Assembly (NCBI GenBank): GCA_019358855.1 | Contig: JAHHII010000017.1 | Span: 1 to 64,000 of the forward strand | From: Timaviella obliquedivisa GSE-PSE-MK23-08B | Lineage (GTDB): Bacteria; Cyanobacteriota; Cyanobacteriia; Elainellales; Elainellaceae | Reading direction: 5' to 3' | Length of the DNA stretch: 64,000 nucleotides | Shown here: in pieces, positions 9,311 to 17,192 of the stretch | Layout: every line of letters begins with the position of its first letter | Numbering within the stretch: the stretch's first letter is position 1 | Program-made: the position numbers and the translations under genes | The notes under the pieces: model-generated | What the model saw: only the letters and a program-made list of their open reading frames with translations | Databases searched by the model: none | Told to the model about the DNA's origin: nothing

Positions 9311-9889
9311 TCAAACCATTAGTCAACTCTTAAGCAGGCATTAGGTATCAATTAACTAGAAAAATCGATGAATGCACCCCTTACTATTACCGTTAAGCGA
9401 TCGACTCATGTAACTGACCTGAGAGGTTGTCTGAGCAGTCTATGGGTTGCTATCCAATCCGCCCCCTAAATCCCCCATTTTGGGGGACTTTGAGGAAGGA
9501 GTGGCTTGGAAGTCCCCCAAAATGGGGGGTTGGGGGCGAGTGTAAGAATCTTTGATACTTCTCAGACATCCTCTGACGTGCAAATTGAGATTAGTAAACT
9601 GCTAGAAAACCAAAAAATTTATCTAAATTAGTACAGAGTTTTCTTTTCCACTCGTGTGAATAGTACCGATGCTCCTAGAGGTCGTAGGTGCTTGAATCAG
9701 AGCGTGTAAACCGTTTGTCTCTAACTTTTGACTGTCTTAATCTCATCCTTCGGGATAGTGCTAAGCCTTTTGGCTCATGCAATATTACTTGCAGCCTTTA
9801 ACTGCTTAGAACCCTTTCTCAGACTATCGAGTTTGAGGAAAGGTATCTCAAGACAGATGTGGCTGACACAGAAAACAGGGAGAAAAAAT
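9311..9889. other. Intergenic region holding a MITE-like element
   Basis: Between the DUF2945 and DUF2267 genes lie about 580 bp. The element at 9423-9573 occupies part of it. The open frame of the DUF2267 gene can be extended upstream to 9728, but that part is hydrophobic, lacks homology that I recognise and precedes a good ribosome binding site at 9890. I see no other feature. Confidence 0.5.
9423..9573. repeat. MITE-like element, family 2 copy B
   Basis: The 151-bp element opens GAGGTTGTCTGAGCAGT and closes ACTTCTCAGACATCCTC, a terminal inverted repeat of 17 bp with two mismatches. It is flanked by TGA on both sides (9420-9422 and 9574-9576). Its centre is the same GC-rich hairpin module (CCCCCTAAATCCCCCAT with complementary arm) found in family 1. 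A second copy lies at 15113-15261. Ends beginning GAG with 3-bp TNA duplication fit the IS1031 branch of the IS5 family, so such a transposase may move it in trans. Confidence 0.8.
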
Positions 9890-12704: not shown

Positions 12705-13148
12705 TTAATTACCCAGTAGATCTGCTTTAGCCTGAACGATCTTTTGAGTAAGTTCTTGGCGATCGTTTGCCCGTACTAAATGCCGCCAACTAAACTGAAC
12801 CAGGGTGATTAGACCGACGAGCTTCAGCAAAGATGACATTAAAGGAATATCATCGATAGCATCTAACGATGCAAACAAAACTCTGATACCCAGAAAAGCG
12901 AGAAGAAGCCAGCCCAAATTACTTAGAAGTTGACGATTTCCCTTAAAGAACGCCACTGTCGATTGAGTAACATTATCAAAGAAATTTGCTGCTTGTACTT
13001 GAAACGAGGTTAAAGATTCCTCCGCCAACTCAGTTGAAGAGGAGGCAGCAGGCAGAAGAGGTTGTTCGAGAACTTGATCCACCTCTGCCAGACTAGGTTC
13101 CATCGTTATTTCGTTGTACTCGTTGGTTTGCATAGTGTCATGGGTCAT
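12705..13148 (-). CDS. CAAD-domain membrane protein
   Basis: The 147-residue start at 13148 is preferred because AAGGAGCAAAACA precedes the ATG; the longer frame to 13241 runs into the upstream gene. The N-terminal 60 residues are acidic and disordered. From about 68 the CAAD (cyanobacterial aminoacyl-tRNA synthetase appended domain) signature follows: FFKGNRQLLSNLGWLLLAFL, a second helix IPLMSSLLKLVGLITLVQFSW, and the closing RHLVRANDRQELTQKI. The domain has two membrane helices and anchors proteins to thylakoids; here it is free-standing, as in CURT1-like proteins. Likely role: membrane or thylakoid shaping or tethering under stress. It is the last gene of a five-gene minus-strand run. Confidence 0.85.
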   Translation of the reverse strand: MTHDTMQTNEYNEITMEPSLAEVDQVLEQPLLPAASSSTELAEESLTSFQVQAANFFDNVTQSTVAFFKGNRQLLSNLGWLLLAFLGIRVLFASLDAIDDIPLMSSLLKLVGLITLVQFSWRHLVRANDRQELTQKIVQAKADLLGN

Positions 13149-13227
13149 TGTTTTGCTCCTTGTTAAAAGTTGTGATGTAATTTTTGGAGCAATCGGTAGC
13201 TTATGGCTACTAACTGCTCCAAAAAAT

Positions 13228-13740
13228 TTACTTGTGACCACCTAGCCACTTAGCTGCCACTGCTCCTAATGCAGCACCAATGACTGGGTTGCTGAGAAAC
13301 TTCACTAAGGCAGGCTGGTCAGCCAGCACTTCGTGAAAGATATCGGGGTGATTGTGGTAAGCAAAGCCCGCAAGCTTACTGACATCGTCAGCATTCATTT
13401 GTTTGGAATGGTGGCTCGATAATCCTAATTGCTTTTGCAAGTCACGATCGCTCAACCCTCGTTTCTTCAAATGATTAATGAACTCTTGGGCAACGTCATC
13501 TCTTTCGTTAGGTTTGATCTGTGCGATCGCCTTTTGGAGTTCTGGTTCCATCTGGCTAGCTGGAATTTGCTCTGGACGCATTGATCTGCTGAACAATTGA
13601 TGTCTTTCAGAACGAGAAGACCGTTGAGCAAAATCATCGAAGTTTTGGTAGTCCGAGCCTGATTCATCAGGCAGCATTTCCTTATCTCCACCTGCCAAAT
13701 CTTTCATAACTTGGCGTTTGTATTCGTCACTGCTAGACAT
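13228..13740 (-). CDS. Uncharacterised 170-residue protein
   Basis: I do not recognise a named family. The start is well supported by GAAGGACGG before ATG 13738-13740. The first 70 residues are polar and probably disordered, rich in Ser, Asp and Arg. Residues 65-130 form predicted helices (LQKAIAQIKPNERDDVAQEFINHLKKRG and SDRDLQKQLGL), and the C-terminus ends with the glycine/alanine-rich stretch NPVIGAALGAVAAKWLGGHK, which may be an amphipathic or membrane-touching helix. It lies between a CAAD-domain gene and a small lipoprotein gene in the stress cluster and probably shares their transcript. Function unknown. Confidence 0.75.
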   Translation of the reverse strand: MSSSDEYKRQVMKDLAGGDKEMLPDESGSDYQNFDDFAQRSSRSERHQLFSRSMRPEQIPASQMEPELQKAIAQIKPNERDDVAQEFINHLKKRGLSDRDLQKQLGLSSHHSKQMNADDVSKLAGFAYHNHPDIFHEVLADQPALVKFLSNPVIGAALGAVAAKWLGGHK

Positions 13741-13828
13741 AGTATTAACCGTCCTTCAAAATTGATGTTGAATTGATCAGGCTGAAAGTGCAGACAGCTT
13801 GTTAACAAGCATGAGCAAGCTACTGTTC

Positions 13829-14275
13829 TTAGCTAGCTGACTGATACTCAATTTGCTTGGATTGCGCATCATAGCGGGCTGTCAAAATCAGTTCTTTGTC
13901 GGGTGCGTACATTAAGACCGTCAGGTCTTGGTTAGGAAAGTTTTTACGGAAGCCTTGCGCCAATGATTGAGCCAATGCTTTCACTTCATCAGGACGAACC
14001 TTTGACGAAATCACGGCTCCTAATTTGTTGTTATCTCGAACAAAGGCATCTTTAATAAGACCTTTGCTTGCTTCCACTATCCAATCACCAAACTCTTGAC
14101 CAGCGGCAGAGTCTCCTCTCGCCAGTTGACCATATTCGACGCTGCGATCGAGACTACTAGGGTAGTTCGACTGAGGCTCTCGAGTGGCAACCCCGCTACA
14201 TGCAGTAGTAAAAGCAAGAGTCAGGACTAAAACGAGAGCCATTAGGCTTTGGCGAACGCGATGAGAAATGTTCAT
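13829..14275 (-). CDS. Small lipoprotein of unknown function
   Basis: The 148-residue product has a classic lipoprotein signal: basic N-terminus, hydrophobic SLMALVLVLTLAF and a lipobox TTAC (Cys about residue 26). The mature part contains GQLARGDSAAGQEFGDWIVEASKGLIKDAFVRDNNKLGAVIS and a C-terminal beta-rich block (LTVLMYAPDKELILTARYD). Family not recognised by me. Predicted location is the plasma or outer membrane, facing the periplasm. AGAGGCGC stands ahead of ATG 14273-14275. Co-directional with DUF2382 genes, so an envelope stress role is possible. Confidence 0.75.
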   Translation of the reverse strand: MNISHRVRQSLMALVLVLTLAFTTACSGVATREPQSNYPSSLDRSVEYGQLARGDSAAGQEFGDWIVEASKGLIKDAFVRDNNKLGAVISSKVRPDEVKALAQSLAQGFRKNFPNQDLTVLMYAPDKELILTARYDAQSKQIEYQSAS

Positions 14276-14363
14276 AGTTATTGCGCCTCTGAAAACAACT
14301 TAGTAAATCGGTCAAACAAGATTATGGAAAGACTCCTGCGAAAGACTGCTCTAGCAAATATTG

Positions 14364-15002
14364 TTAAATTGCTCCTAAAGTGTCATCTTTCAGCACAACG
14401 CTAACCTTCACAGCTTCCACTGAATTAGATTGCGCTGCGATCGCTTCAAGAAATTGAATTGCTGCGGTTATAGAGGTAAAGCTACCCTCAACTGTTGAAG
14501 GAAGGGGAGTGCTAGCTGCCTCCCTGCCAAGTTTTTGCTCTTGGACTTGCTCTTGGACTTGCCCTTGGACTTGCCCTAAGTCAACCACTGCCAACTGCTT
14601 ATACTCTGGGCTAACCTGCTCAACAATTAACTTCTCGCGGCGAACTGGAACTTCGATAATTCGTGTTTCAATTTCCTTACGAATGGTGACTTCACCCACT
14701 TTGCGCTTAATGCGATTGACCATCAATCGCTCTTCGAGAATCTGAACAGTTTCCTCAGCTACGACTGATGGAGTCATGATGAGGTCTTGTTCAGTTGCTA
14801 AATTCGTCTGCTGCGGAGCAGATTGGTTGAGAGCAGAAATATGAACCTGCCTGGGTGACTCTAAGGGAACCGAGGTTTCCAAAGGGACGGAGAACTCTAG
14901 GCTGCCAGGTTGCGGGTGAATAGGTTGACTGGATCTAGGCGATCGCTGCTCATCAGACGATGAGGTTCTAGTATCAAAATCTTTGGGGTTGGAAGGTGTC
15001 AC
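14364..15002 (-). CDS. DUF2382 domain protein
   Basis: This 212-residue protein starts at GTG 15000-15002. After a disordered Ser/Pro/Gln-rich first 85 residues, a DUF2382 segment (about 86-140) reads QILEERLMVNRIKRKVGEV then TIRKEIETRIIEVPVRREKL, alternating basic and acidic strands as in that family. A Gln-rich insert GQVQGQVQEQVQEQK (about 146-160) comes from a 12-bp tandem repeat. The tail has a possible beta domain ending in KVSVVLKDDTLGAI. DUF2382 occurs in stress-induced proteins of desiccation-tolerant bacteria, function unproven. A MITE-like element lies just upstream, between this gene and the PRC-barrel gene. Confidence 0.85.
   Translation of the reverse strand: MTPSNPKDFDTRTSSSDEQRSPRSSQPIHPQPGSLEFSVPLETSVPLESPRQVHISALNQSAPQQTNLATEQDLIMTPSVVAEETVQILEERLMVNRIKRKVGEVTIRKEIETRIIEVPVRREKLIVEQVSPEYKQLAVVDLGQVQGQVQEQVQEQKLGREAASTPLPSTVEGSFTSITAAIQFLEAIAAQSNSVEAVKVSVVLKDDTLGAI
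14535..14580 (-). repeat. 12-bp coding tandem repeat (VQ[EG]Q units)
   Basis: Inside the DUF2382 gene, almost four units of TTGCTCTTGGAC/TTGCCCTTGGAC follow head to tail on the plus strand and encode the repeated tetrapeptide V-Q-E/G-Q on the minus strand. Whole-codon units keep the frame, so copy number could vary without disrupting the protein. Confidence 0.8.
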
Positions 15003-15112
15003 GATAGGATTCCCACAATGATAGCTCAGGCAGAGTTAAGAATTGCCCTGCCTAAATTCTTCTAAAAACTGAGCATTACCAATTTCATACTCTCAACATC
15101 TAGCTTGATTAA

Positions 15113-15261
15113 GAGGTTGTCTGAGAAGTCTAGGTTGCTTCCAATCCGCCCCCTAAATCCCCCATCTTGGGGGACTTTGAGGAAGGAGTGGCTCGGAAGT
15201 CCCCCAAAATGGGGGGTTGGGGGGCGAGTGTAAGAATCTTTGATACTTCTCAGACATCCTC
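15113..15261. repeat. MITE-like element, family 2 copy C
   Basis: The 149-bp element is nearly identical to copy B at 9423-9573, opening GAGGTTGTCTGAGAAGT and closing ACTTCTCAGACATCCTC; here the inverted repeat has a single mismatch. TAA flanks both sides (15110-15112 and 15262-15264). It separates two DUF2382-encoding genes and may affect transcript read-through because its centre can fold into a long GC-rich hairpin. Confidence 0.8.
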
Positions 15262-15279
15262 TAAGAGCAACTTACTCAC

Positions 15280-16158
15280 TTAAGAACGACTTTTGGAATG
15301 ACGGACATCTGCCCCTTCATCCACCACAGGTCGCCCTTGAGTATCTAGGTTTAGCTCCTCACGGCGCAGCGTTTCTTCAGCATTGACTGTTTCGTGATCA
15401 ACTTCTTTTCTAACGCTAACTTCTTCCCGCACAAATGCTTCTTTATGAATGTCTGCCGCTTCTTCATAAACCTCTACTCGTGCTACTTCCCCTTCCTGGA
15501 AAGCTGTCCCATCCGGTGTAACGGCTGCGTCAAGATCAGTAGGTGTCGTGCGTTCAACTACCACACGTTCTTTTTCAAGAGGAACAGAAACTTTAGCATT
15601 CTCGGTTTCTACCCGTTTACCCACTACAACTTCACCCGTTTTAGAACGGGTCTTGTTGGCGATTAGTCGCTCTTCGTACAATCGCAAATTTTGATGGGCG
15701 CGATCGTCCAAATTGTATAGTGCTGGATCACGGTCATAGGCGTAGGTATCACGGTCATAATCTCGAGAGGTGGAAGCATTATCTGCATTCTCTCCTGTGC
15801 CCATGGGACGATACACACCACGCACTTGCTCCTCGTGCTCATAATCCACAGGCATAGTGCCATCATACGAGGGCAGAGCCTCGACTTGGGTACGAGTCAA
15901 ACCATCAACTGCAATGCGACGATTTGAATAATCAACTCGAGAACGACCGATCGGTAGTAAGACTTTCTTACCTAAAATCCAAACACCTGTATTAACAATT
16001 AAGTAACGAATTTTGCCTGTATCATCCACTAATACATCATCGATCGAACCAACCTTATCTGATTTGGCGTAAACGTCATAACCAATAATATCTTGATCTT
16101 GGTTTTCAAAGTGAGCCCGATAGTCAGGGTCAAAATCTCGAATCTTATGAAGTGGCAT
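15280..16158 (-). CDS. PRC-barrel plus DUF2382 protein
   Basis: The 292-residue protein begins with a PRC-barrel (about 15-95: DIIGYDVYAKSDKVGSIDDV, then VDDTGKIRYLIVNTGVW). A Tyr/Asp-rich linker follows (about 110-155), then a DUF2382 domain (about 158-275) with LRLYEERLIANKTRSKTGEV and VGKRVETENAKVSVPLEKER and a second strand set around VREEVSVRKEVDHETVNAEE. This combination is the standard stress-protein architecture found in cyanobacteria, Deinococcus and actinobacteria; the activity is not known. Two tandem copies of the ribosome binding site region precede ATG 16156-16158. It is the first gene of the minus-strand run 16.2-12.7 kb. Confidence 0.9.
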   Translation of the reverse strand: MPLHKIRDFDPDYRAHFENQDQDIIGYDVYAKSDKVGSIDDVLVDDTGKIRYLIVNTGVWILGKKVLLPIGRSRVDYSNRRIAVDGLTRTQVEALPSYDGTMPVDYEHEEQVRGVYRPMGTGENADNASTSRDYDRDTYAYDRDPALYNLDDRAHQNLRLYEERLIANKTRSKTGEVVVGKRVETENAKVSVPLEKERVVVERTTPTDLDAAVTPDGTAFQEGEVARVEVYEEAADIHKEAFVREEVSVRKEVDHETVNAEETLRREELNLDTQGRPVVDEGADVRHSKSRS

Positions 16159-16694: not shown

Positions 16695-17192
16695 ATGAAA
16701 TTACGCGAGGAAGATTGTTCTGCTTTTGGTCGGCTTGTCTTACAGTATCTTAAAGATAATCCGCAAATTAGTATGAGTGAGCTTGCTAGACAGGTTAAAC
16801 TCTCTCATGCAGGGTTAAGTTGGATTTGTCTCAAGCGAAGTAGCCCCAACGAAGAGACGGCAGGGCGTGTTGCTCAGGTAATTGGAGCAGACTTTAATAA
16901 GATTGCTCGTCTTGTCCATGAGAATAAATTAGAGAAGTTAGCAAGTCTTAGCAACTTGAACTATGTTGCAAAACTCGATAAAAAATGGGTGTCTAGACCG
17001 ATTCCTGTAGAAGATGCGATCGCAGGATTAAATGCTGTGTTTCATGCGTACCATTATGTTGTTAGAAATGTTCCTGAAGTGGAAAAACCGACTGATTTTC
17101 AAATATATAAGGAGTCATATGAAATTGTTAGTGGACAATTTGTAAATAACGGTAAAAGGTTTGTAAAAACAAAGTCTCAGGATCGGCTTTAA
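16695..17192 (+). CDS. HTH-domain protein (XRE-like), probable regulator
   Basis: The 165-residue protein has an N-terminal helix-turn-helix region (about 8-65): QYLKDNPQISMSELARQVKLS and HAGLSWICLKRSSPNEETAG, followed by VAQVIGADFNKIARLVHENK, which is how lambda-repressor-type domains pair ISMSELARQ with a recognition helix. The C-terminal part (80-165) has aromatic-rich helices and no family I know. It is alone in its orientation, flanked by a long promoter region and by decayed genes. It could regulate the divergent PRC/DUF2382 cluster, but that is a positional inference only. Confidence 0.7.
   Translation: MKLREEDCSAFGRLVLQYLKDNPQISMSELARQVKLSHAGLSWICLKRSSPNEETAGRVAQVIGADFNKIARLVHENKLEKLASLSNLNYVAKLDKKWVSRPIPVEDAIAGLNAVFHAYHYVVRNVPEVEKPTDFQIYKESYEIVSGQFVNNGKRFVKTKSQDRL

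Follow-up and report, generated by a model that had tools for sequence, protein, structure and literature searches.

The present analysis concerns a 64,000-nucleotide stretch of the cyanobacterium Timaviella obliquedivisa GSE-PSE-MK23-08B (assembly GCA_019358855.1, contig JAHHII010000017.1, positions 1 to 64,000), termed the window in this work, and in it a run of five genes between positions 12,705 and 16,158 that had been proposed, from the sequence alone, to form a stress-related module protecting the cell envelope or the thylakoids. As predicted, all five open reading frames (ORFs) are located on the minus strand. Two of them, here called lip and p170, were found to be a widely conserved gene pair. 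The features of the locus are the following.

15280-16158, minus strand: PRC-barrel and DUF2382 protein of the AvaK/YsnF type, 292 residues, identified by Pfam and TIGR02271.
15118-15256, strandless: palindromic repeat of 139 bp, resembling a miniature inverted-repeat transposable element, between the PRC-barrel/DUF2382 gene and the second DUF2382 gene.
14364-15002, minus strand: second, partial DUF2382 protein, 212 residues, with a marginal Pfam DUF2382 match.
13829-14275, minus strand: lip, a putative lipoprotein without named family, 148 residues, characterized by an invariant Cys26, an AlphaFold2 (AF2) model and its pairing with p170.
13228-13740, minus strand: p170, a predicted all-helical protein without named family, 170 residues, characterized by a 52-row alignment.
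12705-13241, minus strand: stand-alone CAAD (Curt1-type) protein, 178 residues as listed, identified by Pfam CAAD; the true start is likely at 13148.
16695-17192, plus strand: helix-turn-helix (HTH) protein, divergent from the PRC-barrel/DUF2382 gene (HTH_24, 26 bits, cut-off 21.9).

The evidence that lip and p170 belong together is extensive. A scan of the GTDB identified 153 stretches encoding a p170 relative, the best 80 of which are the basis of the locus counts in this work; 79 of these 80 are titled cyanobacterial and one (L082) is labelled Gracilibacteria. At all 80 loci lip was found upstream of p170 on the same strand. The gap between both genes was at most 246 bp at 75 loci, 393-513 bp at four and 2,220 bp at L055, and at L038 only the end of lip is present on the contig. 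A whole-genome search of 242 genomes of the class, which scored limited candidates per genome so that weak copies may be missed, detected p170 in 82, lip in 83 and both in 81, with neither at E≤0.001 in 158 genomes. The only genome with p170 and no lip contains a p170 remnant, and two genomes contain lip and no p170 (one full gene, one fragment). At 88 of the 91 p170 places in these genomes a same-strand lip precedes p170 by 17-619 bp; the three remaining places are all partial, namely, a remnant with a stop (G136), a copy at a contig start (G192) and that of G145. Conversely, p170 was missing at three of 91 lip places; among these, the lip gene of G172 is complete and those of G148 and G160 are fragments. 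Two pairs each were found in the five genomes (G020, G068, G135, G137 and G203) that have two full-length copies. The Fisher test for co-occurrence gave a p of 5e-61, which is descriptive only and ignores shared ancestry, and the pairwise distances of lip and p170 correlate with an r of 0.66 (78 rows, permutation maximum 0.13), a value that could also arise from shared species history alone. We consider it close to certain that lip and p170 are one inherited unit.

This unit is patchily distributed, with a p170 match in 51 of 386 genomes of a phylum sample, in some cases partial or a remnant and subject to the same limit on scored candidates, and in 25 of a sample of 60 relatives. No p170 relative was encoded by the 148 pattern-matching stretches of viral contigs, and among plasmids a single degenerate pair was found, on a Synechococcus sp. 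PCC 7502 plasmid. A PHROGs search retrieved nothing for p170 and one match at E 0.13 for lip. The PADLOC defence-system profiles gave nothing for the pair at E≤0.01 except for a partial PsyrT match to lip (12.8 bits, E 0.0066), which was taken as chance, and the idea of a defence system was dropped. No paper on the pair was found in the open-licence literature, among the matches listed.

The stress link made by the original prediction appears reasonable because the pair is widely kept and recurs beside CsbD or PRC-barrel/DUF2382 genes; its extension to five genes did not hold. At 57 of the 80 loci a general-stress gene, either CsbD or an AvaK/YsnF-type PRC-barrel/DUF2382 gene, is encoded on the strand of the pair no more than 3 kb upstream. 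CsbD (PF05532) accounts for 37 loci and PRC-barrel/DUF2382 for 20, L088 being the only locus with both. Anywhere within 3 kb the respective numbers are 37 and 21, compared to one locus each in the band at 5-8 kb, for 460 and 347 kb of sequence compared, respectively. Wherever CsbD occurs in the fetched stretches (39 loci), it is upstream and on the same strand, and its distance to lip is 89-684 bp, as compared to 42-1880 bp for PRC-barrel/DUF2382. Five of the 20 PRC-barrel/DUF2382 loci have an extra copy on the opposite strand. CsbD is not part of the run in the window, and the only CsbD match of this genome is on contig C5. The same contig contains a second locus (L138, 5876-8174) with another AvaK gene, the 139-bp repeat, an intact lip and a p170 remnant that comprises residues 113-170 only; this recurrence of AvaK and lip in the window's own genome is counted in favour of a stress-linked unit. 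According to PMC4103569, CsbD proteins belong to the general-stress proteins and occur at the cell surface of Anabaena, and AvaK homologues were raised in an alkane-overproducing Nostoc punctiforme strain (PMC7660261). Npun_F5453 of N. punctiforme, 3.65-fold up in PMC7660261, was considered as a lip and dropped, since the Nostoc-type loci L069, L073, L059 and L072 differ from the three forward genes of that paper in having a second PRC-barrel/DUF2382 gene that points the other way.

Other genes accompany the pair as well. A protein of approximately 1,050 residues is encoded at 20 loci, in 18 of them close downstream of p170 on the same strand (e.g., L069, 8744-11920). It has repeated, amphipathic-looking segments and weak apolipoprotein-like matches, with no Pfam family covering it, and a relative with 46-58% identity is encoded elsewhere in the window's genome, on contig C5. 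A protein of about 150-190 residues termed c6, in which the motif GIRPI is repeated and which matches no Pfam family, is encoded beside the pair at L061 (6229-6693) plus 22 loci, and catalase-type genes were observed beside the pair at L032 (Mn catalase) and L169.

The claim that the run contains two proteins of unknown family was borne out, as neither lip nor p170 of the window matches a Pfam or NCBIfam family at the curated cut-off. Among 48 lip relatives compared one by one with Pfam, the best E value was 0.0025, with matches scattered over 13 families at E≤1. The 48-row alignment has 65% mean column identity, Cys26 is invariant in all rows and Ala25 is present in at least 90% of them. Bacterial lipoproteins are recognized by the lipobox, which was judged here by eye, and the N-terminus of lip is consequently read as a lipoprotein-type signal with a putative lipobox cysteine. 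Residues 57-148 were modelled by AF2 with a predicted local-distance difference test score (pLDDT) of ~95 as a compact domain of the order alpha-beta-beta-alpha-beta-beta-beta. A Foldseek search of this model gave no hit at E≤0.001, and a sequence-profile search for solved relatives of lip and p170 returned only matches at E 0.12 or worse. Among solved structures, the closest are the CamS 'sex pheromone precursor' lipoproteins, whose alpha-beta arrangement is similar (Z 9.0 over 95 residues at 3.4 Å; Z 8.4 over up to 100 residues at 2.9 Å), followed by a FliF ring domain (Z 7.5, 71 residues, 2.2 Å) and protease-prodomain-like structures (Z near 7.5); models without clear matches typically reach Z 7-8, and the CamS and FliF values are at or just above this level. 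CamS and FliF differ from lip in sequence (8 to 13% identity, no Pfam match), and the CamS family was absent among the 13 families matched by the lip members. No common function is claimed, and the likeness may be just a common arrangement that carries no function.

p170 is the more conserved of the two, with 77% mean column identity over 52 rows, and the best Pfam match of these relatives had an E value of 0.0081, with scattered families (25 of the 30 matched families listed). No signal peptide is visible. The model is helical with a mean pLDDT of 73; Foldseek found no hit at E≤0.001, and a second structural comparison reached a best Z of 5.8, which means little for helical models. The absence of relatives of p170 or lip from these structure-search lists excludes nothing. 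The Gly/Ala-rich C-terminus highlighted by the original prediction is conserved in sequence; its helical nature is less secure, as discussed below. In four genomes, all from the same family (G333, G367, G495 and G535), the p170 relative is divergent and is matched only from profile position 58-66 onwards; its N-terminus is short in each case and does not resemble that of p170, and each gene lies beside uvrB, CsbD or c6. In these genomes the lip search gave only a 39-residue N-terminal match, in G333 (E 0.004), and a further member of the family, G165, has neither lip nor p170. The most specific mechanistic hint available is this association of the p170 N-terminal part with lip. At L165, L166 and L168 a very long gene was observed directly 3' of a truncated p170, with a Pfam match to TamB in L165 and look-alikes in the others.

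Around the pair, the gene identities proposed for the run were largely confirmed. The first gene is a full AvaK/YsnF member, with 47 bits for Pfam PRC (cut-off 21.2), 118.1 bits for DUF2382 (cut-off 23) and 67.5 bits for TIGR02271 (cut-off 49.75); lip and p170 contain no recognized domain of that family. The PRC-barrel/DUF2382, lipoprotein and CAAD assignments stood, and the second DUF2382 protein proved only partial. Its DUF2382 match of 23.9 bits barely exceeds the cut-off of 23 and covers profile positions 2-48 of 111, and with 22 bits for TIGR02271 it lacks a complete domain of either kind. The 139-bp repeat was found at at least 40 places of the genome with 92-100% identity (40 of 159 candidates scored), including a further copy at 9428-9568 of the window. 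No RNA family reached the gathering threshold in the window between 8000 and 18500. The nearby DUF2267 gene was confirmed by Pfam, and the neighbour called DUF2945 corresponds to Hva1_TUDOR (PF11160), presumably the current name of that family. The HTH protein is an unproven candidate regulator of the run, and a relative is encoded upstream on the opposite strand at six of the 80 loci.

The last gene of the run encodes a CAAD protein (72.2 bits, cut-off 30.7) with two visible hydrophobic stretches and no aminoacyl-tRNA synthetase fusion in its 178-residue ORF. Comparison with relatives favours a start at the ATG at 13148 (MTHDTMQ..), so the overlap with p170 is probably not real. The genome contains three CAAD matches, one of which is a frame of 1025 residues on contig C6 that we take to be ValRS. 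In a 19-row tree, for which the CAAD profile came from a mixed cluster and which includes one hydrolase-like protein without CAAD (L069, upstream, same strand), the window CAAD groups with the copies of L032, L033, L034, L036 and L037 (99*), and the outsiders to this clade are L052, L106, the other stand-alone CAAD protein of the genome and the long ValRS-type one. A CAAD-bearing gene lies downstream of the pair on the same strand at seven of the 80 loci (3.6 kb off in L033), five of which, all near relatives, have the orthologue, and a different CAAD gene is located upstream on the other strand at eight loci, mostly named Nostocales. The 426-residue ORF downstream of p170 at L106 is apparently a fusion, in which a hydrolase-like N-terminus precedes a CAAD domain at the C-terminus. 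According to PMC4893482, CAAD shares homology with Curt1, a group of stand-alone proteins involved in thylakoid curvature, and the window protein, itself stand-alone, is better read as a Curt1 paralogue. Its gene is a local addition for which a role at membranes is plausible.

On this basis it is proposed that lip followed by p170 is a stress-linked unit that protects or remodels a membrane and forms part of the cyanobacterial general-stress gene set, a proposal to which we assign about an even chance of being correct. Its components differ in strength. The gene company makes a function in general stress likely, and a function in protecting or shaping membranes is suggested by the predicted lipid anchor, the Gly/Ala-rich C-terminus of p170 and the lineage-specific Curt1-type neighbour. 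Under this proposal, lip would be exported across the plasma or thylakoid membrane and held by a lipid anchor on its far side, and p170 would stay on the cytoplasmic side and touch the same membrane via its conserved C-terminus. The N-terminal part of p170 may serve a lip-dependent step, as it is absent from the only lineage in which a p170 relative occurs without lip. Both proteins would jointly stabilize or remodel the membrane under general stress, and the Curt1-type protein would be a lineage-specific addition that fits membrane shaping. A more elaborate version, which we advance only tentatively, is that of an undescribed two-protein membrane-protection system, in which a lipid-anchored protein and a peripheral helical protein occupy opposite sides of the membrane, with CsbD or AvaK as interchangeable partners and, in some lineages, a Curt1-type membrane-bending protein or the ~1,050-residue protein with amphipathic repeats.

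Several observations weigh against a stress-linked membrane unit. The predicted location of lip and p170 on opposite sides of the membrane makes a direct contact not obvious, and the helix at residues 141-170 of p170 is predicted at low confidence (pLDDT blocks of 72, 56 and 46). The full lip of G172 is kept without p170. The lip-less p170 relatives are one family, so divergent that the N-terminal difference may reflect one old event. A SigF/SigB-type promoter (GTTT-N11-16-GGGTA, sense strand) was present at none of the 57 loci upstream of the first gene and at none of the 80 before lip (mononucleotide-shuffle means of 0.3 and 0.5, respectively); a looser match by eye upstream of the PRC gene of the window was dropped, and the hexamers enriched upstream resemble coding sequence and ribosome-binding sites, no finer motif search having been made. 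No report on expression, localization or mutants of lip or p170 was found in the open-licence literature. In addition, uvrB, which has no stress-protein character, is equally concentrated near the pair (25 loci near, 0 far), so clade-level synteny and shared ancestry explain part of the neighbour counts. Finally, of the 74 scorable rows, window included, 18 lack both CsbD and AvaK upstream.

The last two points lead to the possibility, which we regard as real if clearly not the favoured one, that lip and p170 are a conserved two-gene unit with a housekeeping or other role and that the stress genes are mere syntenic company in a stress island. Besides uvrB, rpe is a further syntenic neighbour, and partner identity tracks clades: the concatenated tree requires at least 8 changes for AvaK, 8 for CsbD and 6 for uvrB, compared to shuffle means of 18.5 for AvaK and 24.6 for CsbD, in a quick tree with 29 of 74 inner branches open in which gain is indistinguishable from loss. 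However, mere company does not readily account for the position and orientation of CsbD, upstream and on the same strand at 39 of 39 loci and within 3 kb at 37, for the same-strand PRC-barrel/DUF2382 genes at 20 loci (despite an extra opposite-strand copy at five of them), or for the gaps to lip given above. Moreover, one metagenome-assembled genome has two pairs with different stress partners, AvaK in L057 and CsbD in L060. An unlikely alternative is that the pair signals, with lip as envelope sensor and p170 as cytoplasmic effector, possibly together with the divergent HTH gene. The predicted separate compartments, the near-strict pairing and the HTH gene upstream in the window and at six loci agree with it, whereas so low a frequency of the HTH gene and the lack in p170 of any DNA-binding, sigma-binding or enzyme domain at cut-off argue against it.

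It is very improbable that all five genes of the run function as a single module, as originally suggested. The genes share a strand, a scan that finds fewer sites than in shuffled sequence (2 versus a mean of 4.4) reported no terminator-like site for the minus strand of the run, and AvaK upstream together with CAAD downstream also occurs in L032, L033 and L036. Nevertheless, the first two genes are divided by 277 bp that include the 139-bp repeat, and L037 and L034 carry CAAD without an upstream AvaK. The proposed test of neighbourhood conservation was passed by lip and p170; the five-gene conserved unit is rejected because DUF2382 and CAAD are minority partners, the former upstream at 20 and the latter downstream at seven of the 80 loci. 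Since the CAAD orthologue follows the pair only at five loci of near relatives, the exact run is local, and the five genes of the window are a local edition of the lip-p170 unit.

With lip and p170, two highly conserved, co-inherited families that have no Pfam or NCBIfam name accompany CsbD and AvaK/YsnF, which are widespread general-stress families whose own roles are poorly understood. The patchy presence of the pair in the class and the phylum makes comparative tests feasible, and the pair is a concrete, deletable target for the question of how membranes survive stress in cyanobacteria.

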